A stretch of 13,808 bases of DNA from Tannerella sp. (GTDB lineage: Bacteria; Bacteroidota; Bacteroidia; Bacteroidales; Tannerellaceae). Under the pieces are notes generated by a model. That model had not been told where the DNA came from and searched no databases. It was given only the letters and a program-made list of their open reading frames with translations. Positions 8,039-13,808 of this stretch are shown here, in pieces; position 1 is the first letter of the stretch; each line of letters opens with the position of its first letter. Position numbers and translations under genes: made by a program. The stretch covers positions 1 through 13,808 of the forward strand of contig JAIRXI010000366.1 in assembly GCA_031268395.1 (NCBI GenBank). The letters run 5' to 3'.

Positions 8039-9841
8039 TCACTTCCATAGCGGATGCTGCTGCAATGCTTTCGTCGGGCTTGCATTGATGGCTGATTCCG
8101 GAATGGGCCATACCCAGTATCTGCCGCCGGGAAAGGCGGTCGTATTGACCAACTCTCCGCCATTCGCCCCGTTCGGAATTTCAAACGTTTCCGTTTTACT
8201 GCCGTCCAGACTGACGGGCACGGTCAGTTCCTCCAGCCAGGAAGCCGGCGTGCCGTCGGGATTGAACGTTTTGGCGATGCTGATGGAGTATTGCTGAAAA
8301 TTGTTCAGCCTCTCTTCGAGCAGACGCCAGCGCTTCAGATCCCAGTAACGCTTCCCCTCGCAGAGCAGTTCCACCACCCGTTCGTTACGGATCAGCGTCC
8401 GAAGGCTTTCCGTCGTCGGATTCGTGGCAGCGGTAACGGCCGGCATCCCGACGCGCGCACGCAGCTCGGTCAGGGCATTGCGCACCTCGTCCGAGGCGCC
8501 GCTGGCCTCGTTCATCGCTTCGGCATACATGAGCAGCAGTTCTCCGAACCGGTAATTGATATAGCTGGTATAACCGCCTCCGCTGCCCGTATACCGGTCC
8601 CAGTACTTGATGTTGATGTAGCCCGTCGGGGAACGGTCGATCGACGAAAGAAGCGTTTTTATATAATTGACGTTTTGAACAATCGTCTTGTTGCCGTCAT
8701 TGTCGTAATGAAATTCCGAAAGCGTGTTGCCCACCCACTGGCTGCCGTCCTGCGCGGTACAGATCCGTCCCGGATAGATCGTCGTCAGGCCGAATCGCGG
8801 GTCGCGGCTGTCGAACGGCTTTTCCGGGTCGTAGAGCTGACTTTTGCTTATGGGCAGTCCGTCCGTACACTCGTACATGTCTACACATTCCTGCGTCGGG
8901 GAAAAATCGCCCCAGCCAAGGGTGGAATAGGGCACATGAGGGCCGAAATTGTAGTAGCAGAAAGAAGTGGTGGCGACATCTTTCAGGCGCACCCATTCGT
9001 ACACGATTTCTTTCTGCGGCTCCGCTTCCGCCTGCCGGTCGGCAATGAACAGACTGTTGTAGTCGCTGCTCAGGCCGTAGCCCTTGCTTCTTGCCTCCGC
9101 CAGCATGGCCTGTGCCGCCGTTGCCGCGTCGCTGTATCGTGCGCCGGAAAGCGTTTCTTCATAGTAGCCGGCGGTATAGAGCAGCAGTTCGGTTTTCAGC
9201 GTCAGGGCGACCAGTTTGGTCAGCCGTCCCCTTTCGCGCTCGGCCGGTCCCAGGCTTGGCAGCAGTTCGATGGCCCGGTTGATGTGGCTCAGTGCTTCCG
9301 CAAACACTTCTTCCTTTGGCGAAGAAGGGATGTCCGATTCGGCGATGTCGAGCACCTTGCGGACAATGGGCACGCTTTCATACGCCCTGAACATCACAAA
9401 GTAGCGATACGCCAGCAGATAATAGGCCGTTCCCATGTACAGGTTTTTATTCTCTGCGCTCAGCTCGATGTTGTCGATATTGTCGAGCAGCGTGTAGGCG
9501 TTGCGGATTGACGACCAGTTCCAGTACAGTCCCGCGGCGCCGGAAGAAGCCGTCATGGCGCCGTTGTGCAGCTCCGCATAGCTCCGGTTGCCCGATTTGG
9601 AGGACCAGACGCCGAAGAGGTCCGAACGGAAGTCGAACCAGATCGAAGTGGCCTGATCGGTAAAAGAGGAATATAATCCGTCGGCATAGAGTTTGAAGTC
9701 TCCGTCCGATTTGAAATAGGAGTCGACCGACAGATTGTTTTCAGGCAGTTTGGTCAGGTAATCCTCACACGACGTCATGCCTGTCATCGCAGCGATGGCC
9801 AGGAGCCAAAGGCATTTTGCATATTTTCTATAAGTATTCAT
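8039..9841 (-). CDS. SusD/RagB-family outer-membrane nutrient-binding lipoprotein
   Basis: This 600-residue surface lipoprotein should act as the lid of the SusC-type channel encoded just upstream, capturing substrate at the cell surface. The N-terminus is a lipoprotein signal (hydrophobic core about residues 10-22, then TSC with Cys25 as the lipidated residue), followed by acidic residues typical of surface export in this phylum. The family's helical repeat region occupies roughly 35-330, with YLLAYRYFVMFR a clear SusD helix. The C-terminal RagB/SusD region contains FGELLLMYAEAMNE and the hallmark RNERVVELLCEGKRYWDLKR near 483-502. The end, HPLWK, is a variant of the usual NPGW-type ending. 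It lies 30 bases behind susC in the same operon. The substrate cannot be inferred because no glycan-degrading enzyme or peptidase is linked within the window. Confidence 0.95.
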   Translation of the reverse strand: MNTYRKYAKCLWLLAIAAMTGMTSCEDYLTKLPENNLSVDSYFKSDGDFKLYADGLYSSFTDQATSIWFDFRSDLFGVWSSKSGNRSYAELHNGAMTASSGAAGLYWNWSSIRNAYTLLDNIDNIELSAENKNLYMGTAYYLLAYRYFVMFRAYESVPIVRKVLDIAESDIPSSPKEEVFAEALSHINRAIELLPSLGPAERERGRLTKLVALTLKTELLLYTAGYYEETLSGARYSDAATAAQAMLAEARSKGYGLSSDYNSLFIADRQAEAEPQKEIVYEWVRLKDVATTSFCYYNFGPHVPYSTLGWGDFSPTQECVDMYECTDGLPISKSQLYDPEKPFDSRDPRFGLTTIYPGRICTAQDGSQWVGNTLSEFHYDNDGNKTIVQNVNYIKTLLSSIDRSPTGYINIKYWDRYTGSGGGYTSYINYRFGELLLMYAEAMNEASGASDEVRNALTELRARVGMPAVTAATNPTTESLRTLIRNERVVELLCEGKRYWDLKRWRLLEERLNNFQQYSISIAKTFNPDGTPASWLEELTVPVSLDGSKTETFEIPNGANGGELVNTTAFPGGRYWVWPIPESAINASPTKALQQHPLWK

Positions 9842-9871: not shown

Positions 9872-12800
9872 TTAAAAAGTAATGGACACTCCTCCGCTGA
9901 ACACTTTCGAAGGCCCGTAGTATACTGTCCCGCTGTTGCCGCCGTCCGTCGTGCTCAGCACGGATTCCGGATCCGTGTATTCGGTGTATCCAGGCGCATG
10001 GTAGAACAGGTTTTCACCGGTGAAGAAGACCCTCAGTCGGGAAACGTAGCATTTCTCCGTCAACTGCCGCGGCAGCGTGTAGCCTGCCTGCAGGTTTTTC
10101 AGACGGATGTACTTATAATTCCGCAGGTGATATTCGGTGGGAGAACCGAACAGGGTACTGAACTCGCCACTGATCCAGTTGTTGTCCGTCAAACGCGGCT
10201 GATCGGCCCATTTGTCGGGATTCTCCGGACTCCAGCGATTGTCGTAGTTACTTTGGAACAGGTTAAAGTGATGCCTGTTCCCGGTCGTATAGTGTCCGTC
10301 CCCGACTCTGATATCCCAGCGTTCGCCTACGCCATTGAATACGGCGGTAAAATCGAAACCTTTGTATTCGGCGCCGAGATGGAAGCCGTAAAAGTAGTGA
10401 GGCGTCGTTGTCTTTGTCGAGAAGTAGCGGTCGTCGCTGTTGAGCTGGTTGTCGCCGTTTCGGTCGATAAATTTAATGTCGCCCGGACGGGTCAGGCCAT
10501 TCGGAGGAATGACGGAGTTGTCTATTTCGTTCTGATCCACGAACAGGCCGTCGGTCTGGTACAGATAGAAACCGTTGCGCGGCCGTCCTTCCGCATAATA
10601 AGTCGTCCCTCCTATCACGATGTGTCCGCCGTCATAGCGCGGATCGGTGGATCCCAGTCCGCCAAGACTGACGACCTTGTCGCGACTGTCGGAAATGTTT
10701 CCGCCGACAGTGTATGTCACATCGCCGATCCTGTCCCGCCACGTCAATTCCAGTTCCCAGCCGCGATTGTCGATCGTGTAGGTATTCTGCACCGGCGCCG
10801 AGGCACCGAAGAGACTTGAAACGGTTGGTGTTCCGATAATGTCTTTGGTACGGTCGTAATACCAGTCGAACGAACCCGACAGGCGACTGTCCAGCAGACC
10901 GAAATCAAGCGCAAGGTTGGCGGTCGTTTTCGTTTCCCACGACAAATCCAGGTCGGGCGGCGTCCCTGTGGAGGTCGTCGTTACGGTACCGCCGCCAAAG
11001 GCATAGCTGCCACGTCCGACCGTCGTGGCAAACGGATAAAGCGCCGATCCCTGATTGCCCAGTTTCCCCCATGTGGCACGGAGTTTCAGGTTGCTCAGCC
11101 AGTCGACGTCCTTCATGAAAGCCTCTTCCCTGATCCGCCAGGCCGCGGATGCGGAAGGAAACAGCGCCCAGCGCTGTTTGGGCGAAAACCGCGACGAGCC
11201 GTCATAACGTACCGTTCCTTCCAGAATATAACGGTCTTTGAAGGCATACGTAGCGCGACCGATCAGCGAAGCCATCGCCCATTCGTCGGCCGAAGAATTG
11301 CCCGTAAAGTCAAGACCCGATCCGACGGAAGCCGACAGTTCCCGCAGTTCGTTATTGATAAACCGGTTGCGGCTGGCGGAAATATTGTCCTGCCGGTTGG
11401 TTTCCGCCTGAAATCCGGCGAAGGCGGTGATCGAATGGTCGCCCGTTCGGATACTGTAGTCCAGCGAAACGAGGTGGCTCAGGTATTGCGTCGCGCCCCA
11501 GCTTTCCGAAGCCGTCGAATAGGCGCGGTTTGTACCGGTGATTCCTCCTGCCTCATCATAAAGTGCATAGATCCGCGTAAATGAATTTTCCCGATTAAAG
11601 AAATTATTGGACGAAAGCGTATACTTCAGGAATAAATCCTTGAACAGTTCAAATTTCAAATCGGCCGAAATACGGTAGCGGTCGTAGTCGTAAAGTATAT
11701 TTCCTCCTTCGGCTAATGACTGATACGCAGTTCCGGTATAATAATGCCCGTTCGGATAATAAAACGGGTAGATGGGAGCCGCTATCAGCAGCGCGCGCAC
11801 TTGCTGCCCAACCCCGCCGCCGGCAGGACGTGTTGTGTTCTCTTTTGAATAAAATGCGTTAACGGCGATTTCCAGTCGCTCGAACGGTTTCCAGTTCAGA
11901 TTGCCCAGAAACGTGAACTTGCGGTAGTCGTCGTTCGGCAACAGGCCGTCCTGCGACAGGTATCCTGCCGAGAGATACGTTTTGAGTTTTTCCGTACCGC
12001 CCCGTACACTGATGTCATGCTGATACTGCATGGGCGTCTCCATCCAGTCAAACACCTGCGTGCGAGCCGGTTTTGCCGGATCGGAACCGTCATACTGCGC
12101 GATCATTTCTTCCGTATAGGGAGCCGTGCCGCCGTCGTTCAGAAAGGCTTCGTTATTGGCCCGCATCCATGTCTGCGAATCCACGAACTTGTTTTTCCAG
12201 TTGGCCAGCATGGATTGCTGGGCGCCGAACGTACCCTGATAGGTCACGGTCGTTTTGCCCGCCGTACCCTTTTTGGTCGTGATCAGCACCACGCCGCCGG
12301 TTGCCCTGGAACCGTAGATGGCCGCCGCCGCCGCGTCCTTCAGGATGGAAATGTTTTCAACATCGTTCGGATTCACGTCGTCGATTCCGCCGACCACCCC
12401 GTCAATCAGCACCAGTGCTCCGTTGGAAGAAAACGTACCCATCGAGGCGCCGCGAATATCTACGGTTGCCGCGCTGTAGCCGGGACGTCCCACGGTCTGA
12501 CGGATGTACACGCCGGGCGTGATGCCCTGCAGCGCCGTTGCCAGCTTGGGGATCGAGCGGCTTTCAAGCAGTTCGGTATTGACCGACGTGATGGCGCTGG
12601 TCAGACTTTCCTTTCGCTGGGTGCCGTATCCGACAACCACCACTTCTTCCAGCACCCTGGTATCTTCTTCCAACGTTATGTTCAGGGTTGTCCGGTTCGC
12701 CACGGCCACCTCCAGCGTCACATAGCCGATGTAGGAAACCGTCAGTGTCGCACCGGGAGACACCTCCAGCGAGAATTTCCCGTCCACGTCGGTGATGCTT

Positions 12801-13042
12801 CCATTGATGGCAACACCCTTCTCCACTATATTGGCGCCAATTACCGGCTCACCCGTCCGGTCGACAACCGTCCCGGTGATGCGGCTCTTTGCCTGCTGCG
12901 GTTCGGGCGTTTCCGCCGGACTGCCGTCGCGGGCATTCGTTATGCCCGTCCCCGCCGCCAGCAAAAAGGCGCACAGGATCAGGACACTTTTCATTCTGTT
13001 ACGTTTGGCATTTTTCATGCCTTCAATCACTTTGTTTATCAT
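9872..13042 (-). CDS. SusC/RagA-family TonB-linked outer-membrane transporter
   Basis: This 1,056-residue outer-membrane protein should import oligosaccharides or peptides using TonB energy, paired with the SusD lipoprotein downstream. A signal peptide core lies at about residues 17-37. A carboxypeptidase-D-like regulatory domain follows (about 54-126, ITGTVVDRTGEPVIGANI), then the TonB box and family motif LEEVVVVGYGTQRK (131-144), the plug (about 145-258, including ILKDAAAAAIYGSRATGGV) and a 22-strand barrel to the C-terminal aromatic VSITF. There is no N-terminal STN signalling domain, so FecR-type sigma control through this protein is not expected. The start at 13042 gives a long n-region; in-frame ATGs at 13018 and 12994 are alternatives, the last giving the most standard signal peptide. 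No TAnnTTTG box is visible in its leader. Confidence 0.96.
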   Translation of the reverse strand: MINKVIEGMKNAKRNRMKSVLILCAFLLAAGTGITNARDGSPAETPEPQQAKSRITGTVVDRTGEPVIGANIVEKGVAINGSITDVDGKFSLEVSPGATLTVSYIGYVTLEVAVANRTTLNITLEEDTRVLEEVVVVGYGTQRKESLTSAITSVNTELLESRSIPKLATALQGITPGVYIRQTVGRPGYSAATVDIRGASMGTFSSNGALVLIDGVVGGIDDVNPNDVENISILKDAAAAAIYGSRATGGVVLITTKKGTAGKTTVTYQGTFGAQQSMLANWKNKFVDSQTWMRANNEAFLNDGGTAPYTEEMIAQYDGSDPAKPARTQVFDWMETPMQYQHDISVRGGTEKLKTYLSAGYLSQDGLLPNDDYRKFTFLGNLNWKPFERLEIAVNAFYSKENTTRPAGGGVGQQVRALLIAAPIYPFYYPNGHYYTGTAYQSLAEGGNILYDYDRYRISADLKFELFKDLFLKYTLSSNNFFNRENSFTRIYALYDEAGGITGTNRAYSTASESWGATQYLSHLVSLDYSIRTGDHSITAFAGFQAETNRQDNISASRNRFINNELRELSASVGSGLDFTGNSSADEWAMASLIGRATYAFKDRYILEGTVRYDGSSRFSPKQRWALFPSASAAWRIREEAFMKDVDWLSNLKLRATWGKLGNQGSALYPFATTVGRGSYAFGGGTVTTTSTGTPPDLDLSWETKTTANLALDFGLLDSRLSGSFDWYYDRTKDIIGTPTVSSLFGASAPVQNTYTIDNRGWELELTWRDRIGDVTYTVGGNISDSRDKVVSLGGLGSTDPRYDGGHIVIGGTTYYAEGRPRNGFYLYQTDGLFVDQNEIDNSVIPPNGLTRPGDIKFIDRNGDNQLNSDDRYFSTKTTTPHYFYGFHLGAEYKGFDFTAVFNGVGERWDIRVGDGHYTTGNRHHFNLFQSNYDNRWSPENPDKWADQPRLTDNNWISGEFSTLFGSPTEYHLRNYKYIRLKNLQAGYTLPRQLTEKCYVSRLRVFFTGENLFYHAPGYTEYTDPESVLSTTDGGNSGTVYYGPSKVFSGGVSITF

Positions 13043-13135
13043 ACGTCATTAAATTAAATGTGAGTTTGAGTTTACTGTTAAAATGGTACTGTTTTCGCTG
13101 TTAAGCGTATCCGGCCGGAAAGTCATACCGCCCTT

Positions 13136-13170
13136 TTCCGTCCGTTTCCGTGTTTTGATTCATTCCGTGT
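13136..13170. repeat. Direct repeats TTCCGTSY upstream of susC, possible operator
   Basis: TTCCGTCC (13136-13143), TTCCGTGT (13146-13153) and TTCCGTGT (13163-13170) form three near-identical copies at 10- and 17-base steps, about 95-130 bases upstream of the susC start. Nearby, TCCGGCCGGA (13110-13119) is a 10-bp perfect palindrome. This is a plausible place for an activator that works without a standard promoter box, but no regulator can be assigned. The rest of 13043-13235 shows nothing else I can name. Confidence 0.3.
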
Positions 13171-13235
13171 CCATAGGCCTCTGTTTTATAATGTGATACA
13201 TTCACTTTCTTCTGTTTCCTGCCCGTCTGCCTTCT

Positions 13236-13346
13236 TCAGTGAAGACTCTCACCTTATAAGGTGGGAGTCTTCCACCTTATAAGGTGAGAGTCTTCCACCT
13301 TGCAAGGTGAGAGTCTTTCACCTTGCAAGGTGAGAGTCTTCACTGA
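13236..13346. repeat. Phased palindrome array: four 14-bp dyads on a 23-bp period, bounded by inverted repeats
   Basis: Palindromes CACCTTATAAGGTG (starts 13250, 13273) and CACCTTGCAAGGTG (starts 13296, 13319) repeat at exactly 23 bp. The 9-bp spacers are nearly identical (AGAGTCTTC with single changes). The array is bracketed by a perfect 14-bp inverted repeat, TCAGTGAAGACTCT (13236-13249) and AGAGTCTTCACTGA (13333-13346). With the outer half-palindromes, the arms reach 20 bp (13236-13255 and 13327-13346). The central dinucleotide changes from AT to GC in units 3 and 4, and each version keeps perfect dyad symmetry. It lies between the small gene at 13363-13608 and susC. No U-tract follows on either strand, so it is not an ordinary terminator. 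It may be a protein-binding array, an mRNA structure or a dispersed palindromic repeat. Confidence 0.9.
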
Positions 13347-13362
13347 AATCAGGCAGGAGACC

Positions 13363-13608
13363 TCAGACGACCGTGACGGGGTTTGGATACACATATTCGC
13401 GCACGTCTTTGGTGAGGGTGGAGCCGCTTGCCGTAGACTGCGTGGCCACTTTCCCGTTAACGTTCTTTGTAGCGATCTGCTTGCTTTCCATCCGGTGGAT
13501 GACGTCGTCAATATACAGCGTTCCGCGCGAGGTCGACAGCAGATAGTAGCTTACCGGCTTTTCTTTTGTAAGCTCATTCTGATGAGCAGTTGCTTTTACT
13601 AAATCCAT
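13363..13608 (-). CDS. Small hypothetical protein (81 aa)
   Basis: The ATG at 13608-13606 opens an 81-codon frame ending in TGA at 13365-13363. It is preceded by an AT-rich, A-rich leader (AAATGAAACAACA before the ATG) typical of Bacteroidales genes, and the codon use is ordinary. The protein is soluble, with no signal peptide. The first 53 residues (KPVSYYLLSTSRGTLYIDD, then VIHRMESKQIATKNVNG) look like a folded basic domain, while the last part (KVATQSTASGSTLTKDV, then REYVYPNPVTVV) is Ser/Thr-rich. The front half has a faint similarity in pattern to the N-terminus of HU-like DNA-binding proteins of this phylum; I could not verify this and do not assign the function. No frameshift is apparent. 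It is on the same strand as susC but separated by the palindrome array and a 320-base gap. Confidence 0.6.
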   Translation of the reverse strand: MDLVKATAHQNELTKEKPVSYYLLSTSRGTLYIDDVIHRMESKQIATKNVNGKVATQSTASGSTLTKDVREYVYPNPVTVV

Positions 13609-13629: not shown

Positions 13630-13719
13630 ATATATATATGATTATGGTTGTTATACAGACTGAACCGGGTGTATTTTCAGGTGGTCGCGTACCATCATGG
13701 CGAGGACGTCCGGCGTGCC

Positions 13720-13774
13720 CGCAATGACGAATTGGATATGCGCCGTCATTGCGAGGAGGAACGACGAAGCAATC
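13720..13774. repeat. Dispersed palindromic intergenic repeat (CGTCATTGCG family)
   Basis: CGCAATGACG (13720-13729) and CGTCATTGCG (13744-13753) form a perfect 10-bp inverted repeat around a 14-base loop. The right arm continues as GAGGAACGACGAAGCAATC (13756-13774), giving a unit of the kind CGTCATTGCGAGG...GAAGCAATC. This is recognisable as a class of short repeat scattered through the intergenic DNA of many bacterial genomes. The stretch 13691-13729 looks like a second, degraded copy in reverse orientation. It has no coding potential I would accept. Confidence 0.7.
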
Positions 13775-13808
13775 GCCAAAGCAGGAAGCCCAACGCAATC
13801 CGTGCCCG

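Follow-up and report, generated by a model that had tools for sequence, protein, structure and literature searches.

A phased palindrome array between an HU-like open reading frame and susC in Tannerella sp., and the coupling of such arrays to HU-DUF4469 genes

A gene for a DNA-binding protein accompanied by its own repeat array is a known kind of module. REP/BIME elements are short palindromes that adjoin the gene of a DNA-acting protein, the RAYT; their sequence is class-specific, and solitary copies occur elsewhere. Iterons are tandem sites spaced about two helical turns apart beside the gene of their binding protein, and they differ between replicons. HU proteins, for their part, favour distorted DNA. 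In P. gingivalis, the gene of the HU protein PG0121 and an inverted repeat lie beside a surface-polysaccharide operon, and the authors discuss the formation or suppression of a cruciform at this inverted repeat, which is 77 bp long and belongs to the capsule locus; in the portion of the article accessible to us, PG0121 is said to resemble E. coli HU closely and to have no strong preference for distorted DNA, and DUF4469 is not mentioned for it (PMC3969353). The PF14848 and PF14734 protein TDE_2259 of Treponema denticola has been called similar to HU, and its expression drops in a trtA mutant; the accessible portion of that source mentions no array for it (PMC12724145). The word DUF4469 itself was not found in the open-access literature searched, where PF14848 and PF14734 turned up together in one article, that on TDE_2259.

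The array described here was found in a stretch of 13,808 nt from Tannerella sp. (contig JAIRXI010000366.1 of assembly GCA_031268395.1), referred to in the following as the window. As with REP elements and RAYTs, its palindromes adjoin a gene of a putatively DNA-acting protein and sequences differ between loci; arrays that may be solitary copies occur elsewhere in the window genome, but the partner is an HU-DUF4469 protein instead of a Y1 transposase, and the units stand in tandem with a period near 23 bp. As in iterons, sites repeated in tandem at about two helical turns lie next to a protein gene, whose product would by analogy bind them; the units are, however, mostly inverted repeats, there is no Rep, and most of the sequence is replaced between loci whose proteins are still 60-80% identical. 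The likeness to the PG0121 locus, an HU-like gene with inverted symmetry beside a surface-polysaccharide operon, is limited by the single long inverted repeat there, as opposed to a tandem array here (PMC3969353), and TDE_2259 shares the PF14848 and PF14734 domains (PMC12724145). The features of the window are as follows.

13363 to 13608, minus strand: HU-like open reading frame (ORF) of 81 aa (PF14848 with E 0.00099 and 19.6 bits, under the cut-off of 30)
13235 to 13347, no strand assigned: palindrome array, with 21-bp perfect inverted ends at 13235-13255 and 13327-13347
13250 to 13263, no strand assigned: palindrome unit 1, CACCTTATAAGGTG
13273 to 13286, no strand assigned: palindrome unit 2, CACCTTATAAGGTG
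13296 to 13309, no strand assigned: palindrome unit 3, CACCTTGCAAGGTG
13319 to 13332, no strand assigned: palindrome unit 4, CACCTTGCAAGGTG
13043 to 13234, minus strand: leader from array to susC, about 190 nt
9872 to 13042, minus strand: susC, TonB-dependent receptor (CarbopepD_reg_2 and Plug)
8039 to 9841, minus strand: susD (SusD_RagB, SusD-like_3)

A sequence-only reading of the window had described the array as standing in front of susC. This position is right, but the nearer neighbour is the stop codon of the HU-like ORF: on the minus strand, the ORF (13608-13363) is followed after 15 nt by the array, then by the leader, susC (13042-9872) and susD (9841-8039). The four perfect 14-bp palindromes with a 23-bp period and no drift that had been reported were confirmed, as CACCTTNNAAGGTG matched exactly at the four sites 13250-13263, 13273-13286, 13296-13309 and 13319-13332, the dyad centres at 13256.5, 13279.5, 13302.5 and 13325.5 give an exact period of 23 bp, and TRF returned a period of 23 with 4.0 copies and 0% indels. 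The same holds for the letters at the dyad centres (AT, AT, GC, GC) and for the near-invariance of the spacers, which in the window array are nearly identical (GGAGTCTTC, AGAGTCTTC and AGAGTCTTT). The ends had been given as 14-bp perfect repeats extending to 20-bp arms in a block of 111 bp; the perfect inverted ends in fact measure 21 bp and the closed block is therefore 113 bp long. The array is beyond chance: at least four palindrome matches (with at most two mismatches) occurred in 0 of 200 dinucleotide shuffles of the window, with a shuffle mean of 0.33.

The array is no CRISPR, its spacers being nearly identical instead of unique, and no intrinsic terminator, as a T run is absent 3' of it on both strands; both points had been anticipated. 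Rfam 15 gave 0 matches at gathering score over the window. Neither a transposase nor, among the five window ORFs scanned, a Y1 transposase gene or rep gene adjoins the array, the neighbours being the HU-like ORF and susC. Folded as RNA, positions 13230-13350 reach -76.3 and -79.2 kcal/mol on the two strands (z -12.3 and -11.5). The two folds that had been drawn, four small hairpins or one long hairpin, are the lowest-energy fold on neither strand; on both, this fold consists of two long hairpins, formed by units 1 and 2 and by units 3 and 4 and closed by the inverted ends.

The susC leader (stretch 13043-13249) recurs in the window genome, with 8 matching places that include the leader itself and are otherwise 83-91% identical to it; of 60 other genomes searched, 1 gave one weak match. 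A conserved RNA structure in this leader was considered and rejected: the prediction was weak, with two-sided paired change in 1 of 11 predicted pairs and a slightly unfavourable covariation term. Upstream of the same leader on contig C153 of the window genome (locus L055, 3706-3873) lies a different array, TTCACGTGAA, with a period of about 21 bp.

The 81-aa ORF corresponds to the beginning and the end of an HU-DUF4469 protein, with about 160 internal residues gone in frame compared with its paralogues on contigs C402 and C396. Both paralogues match PF14848 and PF14734 (HU-DNA_bdg and DUF4469) above the Pfam cut-off, and neither matches the canonical HU/IHF family PF00216 at E up to 1. The window ORF shows a sub-threshold PF14848 match only, short of membership in the HU-DUF4469 family. 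Cut down to 81 codons, this gene is probably inactive; the array would therefore depend on protein supplied in trans from a fuller copy, and the copy on C396, which carries the same palindromes, is a candidate supplier. An AlphaFold2 model of an HU-DUF4469 protein (mean pLDDT 89.1, pTM 0.55) was used for a Foldseek search, in which 4FMR came first, followed mostly by Ig/TIG-type domains; canonical HU/IHF proteins were absent from the best 50 matches listed, a point against the site-array reading proposed below. 4FMR, BVU_2165 of Bacteroides vulgatus, has the same domain types, was deposited as a putative DNA-binding protein; no other solved relative emerged from the sequence search. A phage link was considered, but a scan of viral contigs with A1, an alignment of close relatives, turned up no relative. 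Beyond the ORF, positions 13707-13808 of the window begin like CGTCATTGCGAGG, resemble a stretch in L098 and look like another dispersed repeat.

The exact window-array sequence, searched across 123 family genomes, was found in its own genome (G000) only. This search misled because the arrays on C402, C386 and C153 carry other sequences. Within the window genome, the window palindromes also occur on C396, beside an open HU-DUF4469 frame running off the contig end, and, together with the shared leader, at the contig ends C102, C255 and C371. On C402, C386, C251, C147 and C278, HU-DUF4469 genes are followed by arrays of other sequence with the same 23-bp period. On C364, an HU remnant still shorter than the window ORF also adjoins the array; far from this remnant, the same contig carries a palindromic 42-bp array of 9.7 copies (L019, 8307-8714).

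Arrays also occur apart from such genes. The CTTATAAG core at 23-bp spacing gave 31 forward matches in the window genome versus 2 for the reversed control, and the arrays with this core have core and spacer letters in common with the window array. On C46, C300, C200, C7, C129 and C316 they lie beside unrelated genes, which we take by eye to include galactokinase, phosphofructokinase and malate dehydrogenase, and on C48 and C73 the contig ends inside the array, with one side out of view. The DUF4469 and HU-DNA_bdg matches include none of these contigs. Among 23-bp arrays whose flanks are visible on both sides, at least seven (C316, C46, C300, C200, C7, C129 and C20) have no adjoining HU-DUF4469 gene. 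The solitary same-core arrays may be trans targets or dispersed copies. On C20, which has no HU-DUF4469 match, a palindromic 21-bp array of 9 copies was also noted (L079, 16048-16235).

To the extent that same-core arrays of variable unit number lie beside unrelated genes in the window genome, the dispersed palindrome suggested by the sequence-only reading stands. It would be a REP-like element that slippage or a mobile function has amplified and for which HU-DUF4469 is a partner or a favoured place of insertion, and both the contigs that end inside arrays and the arrays that persist beside shortened HU copies on C283 and C364 fit it. We nevertheless regard this explanation as improbable: arrays have their own sequence at most loci, a transposase is absent next to the window array, 183 kb of arbitrary contigs, taken from four relatives rich in HU-DUF4469 genes, contained no array to which TRF gave a period of 23, and amplification alone leaves the order-wide period unexplained.

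The coupling of arrays to genes was analysed across the genus, where DUF4469 is found in 29 of 41 genomes. A scan of genome contigs with an HU alignment added 12 named loci, all from MAGs labelled as Tannerella sp., Prevotellaceae bacterium or Bacteroidales bacterium. Because TRF alone missed diverged arrays such as that of L056, arrays were detected as a 40-nt self-match at fixed lag and called at 29/40 or more. The sample of 86 distinct 3' flanks comprises 75 flanks (from 80 examined of 140 DUF4469 matches) and 11 of the 12 named loci; left out were L088 and L100 (less than 90 nt of 3' sequence), L114 and L185 (no stop codon in the stretch), L134 (a duplicate of L056) and L066 (cut by a contig end). 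L100, outside the count, nevertheless has a 23-bp array. An array is present in 77 of the 86 flanks, with a period of 22 (2 flanks), 23 (59), 46 (15) or 47 (1), the 15 cases of period 46 fitting the earlier suggestion that units were duplicated in pairs. Six further flanks have a best period of 23 but stay below the threshold (L059 among them is not above its own shuffles), and L099, L170 and L191 have no array.

By comparison, 23-bp arrays were found in 0 of 42 stretches upstream of HU-DUF4469 genes and in 0 of 66 distal stretches 500-800 nt downstream. They follow 1 of 30 ordinary HU (PF00216) genes among the matches listed; the single case, L216, has its array 130 nt after the stop codon. 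TRF detected no period-23 array in 231 kb from four genomes without DUF4469 or in 84 kb of genome G078, of which 0 of 544 tiles had a 23-bp array. In arbitrary contigs of the window's own genome, 2 of 419 tiles were positive, both from one array on C20. Genome G080, which has no DUF4469 match, yielded 0 tiles at period 23, 5 at 22, 1 at 44 and 2 at 46 among 1320 tiles. Palindromic arrays of about 22 bp lie beside other genes in this genome (for one of them TRF gave a period of 23 with a 22-nt consensus), so that such arrays can exist without an HU-DUF4469 protein. G080 and the arrays without a gene in the window genome speak against an exclusive rule of one gene to one array. G080 (L118-L127) is, moreover, very rich in 41/42-bp arrays, many palindromic and some maybe coding.

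Beyond the genus, arrays are less tightly coupled to the gene, and their period shifts to 22, 24, 44 or 45. The DUF4469 domain occurs in 26 of 295 genomes of the order, and among 25 flanks from other families (25 of 29 new loci, L159-L162 being excluded as weak matches in long proteins) arrays are strong in 13, weaker in 8 and absent in 4. At the level of the phylum, with DUF4469 in 15 of 395 genomes, 14 of 21 flanks have strong arrays, 15 of the 21 loci coming from five genomes of one genus; this sample leaves out 5 of 26 new loci (L320 and L326, from the own genome, and L314, L315 and L322, weak or long). The shuffle comparison of arrays covers the genus-level flanks.

To a large part, what is retained in the arrays is their symmetry. 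A stem of at least 5 bp is present in 58 of 83 array units versus 7.9 expected from shuffled units, the best stem being shorter than 5 bp in the other 25. Within arrays, stems diverge by 8.8% and loops by 21.4% (53 arrays; stem lower in 43, higher in 10), and pairing is kept in 15 of 23 double changes (P 0.0017 against one third). These counts lean toward structure because the consensus of each array served to define its stems. Between arrays, unit similarity at 60-80% protein identity averages 11.8-12.1 of 23 positions versus 10.6-10.8 for shuffled units, rising to 14.4 of 23 above 80% identity. Stem excess, low stem divergence and unit similarity near that of shuffled units together bear out the proposal that symmetry is kept rather than exact sequence. 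Single array pairs at 60-80% identity reach 17-19 of 23, so some sequence memory remains, and a reading by structure alone leaves the homogenisation of letters within each array unexplained. A co-variation of HU subfamily with array core, plausible by eye, was dropped, the mean similarity being near shuffled except for very close proteins.

Whether the element acts as DNA or RNA was assessed from the stem deviations and the flanks. The array could be the 3' end of the HU-DUF4469 transcript and the leader of the next gene, its tandem hairpins acting as a terminator, attenuator or stability element, and the sequence-only reading had proposed an RNA switch. The very stable folds on both strands agree with this, as do the double changes that keep pairing in excess of expectation and the three loci L063, L173 and L204, where a hairpin at the array itself is followed by a T run. 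For the majority of the genus-level flanks, the array has no terminator-like hairpin ahead of it and may therefore be transcribed. The stem deviations, however, comprise 65 GT (G.U-type) versus 72 AC mismatches (binomial 0.61) and thus do not indicate that RNA of the HU strand has been under selection; ordinary HU genes, in addition, are mostly without arrays. In a minority of relatives, a terminator-like hairpin does lie between stop codon and array (5 of 86 genus-level, 7 of 25 order-level and 7 of 21 phylum-level flanks, counted without a chance control and by two scripts, one for genus and order and one for phylum, with slightly different criteria), some of these hits, such as L158 and L309, having a T-rich or weak array. 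The lack of RNA-strand bias and the arrays lying beyond such a hairpin favour a DNA-level element, which for the genus-level cases without a preceding hairpin is not proven; a role as RNA appears rather unlikely to us.

The sequence-only reading had also considered a multimeric operator for the susCD operon. For a susC-specific operator read by another regulator speak the same-sequence arrays on C283, C396, C102, C255 and C371, which lie upstream of the shared leader. Other copies of this leader (C153, C386), however, have quite different arrays, and elsewhere arrays follow the HU-DUF4469 gene whatever comes next. Among 30 hand-picked of 41 same-strand downstream neighbours that were scanned, 6 are of the TonB/SusC type (L104, L179, L195, L052, L129 and L057); others are glycoside hydrolases, a sulfatase, glucosaminidases, TIG proteins and housekeeping genes, and 7 of the 30 have no Pfam family. 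Specificity for susC therefore seems very unlikely, and a regulatory effect, if there is one, would reach beyond susCD.

From the observed coupling, period, symmetry, sequence turnover, lack of RNA-strand bias and position of some arrays beyond a terminator-like hairpin, we infer binding, a mode of recognition and regulation: the array would offer a row of sites to the HU-DUF4469 protein encoded next to it, and through these the module or the adjoining gene would be controlled, an explanation to which we give an even chance. The module would have two parts, an HU-DUF4469 gene and, behind it, tandem short inverted repeats with a period of 22-23 bp. On these, the protein would assemble at the DNA level, with each dyad taken up by a single protein or dimer; the dyads lie about two helical turns apart and would be presented at regular phase by their inverted half-sites. 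Recognition might depend less on a fixed sequence than on the geometry of the dyads or on an extruded hairpin, as a mostly free sequence combined with a fixed geometry fits recognition of structure. The resulting nucleoprotein block could regulate its own gene, the next gene (here susC) or both, or shield one from the other. More tentatively, and in our view doubtful though possible, this may extend to a system throughout Bacteroidota in which an HU-like architectural protein reads an adjacent array by geometry while the array evolves freely at each locus.

Although the kind of module is known, it would be categorically new if recognition by structure alone held true. In the open-access literature searched, the coupling of arrays to HU-DUF4469 genes appears not to have been described, and a DNA element whose dyads or cruciforms, phased at about 23 bp, are read by structure apparently has no described counterpart. 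If the protein reads the array, this would give the orphan family DUF4469 a function, open a way to study how operons for polysaccharide uptake and other surface operons are controlled, and provide a test case for sites on DNA that are recognised by their structure and not by their sequence. The association is regular enough for a test with one protein and its own array.

Upstream of the HU-DUF4469 genes, a different kind of repeat was observed. Runs of (AG/CT) with at least 8 repeats stand about 200-430 nt before the presumed start in 8 of the 40 loci with enough upstream sequence (L056, L057, L059, L060, L090, L091, L094 and L103), as against 0 runs in 349 kb of other stretches, and phase variation of these genes is possible.
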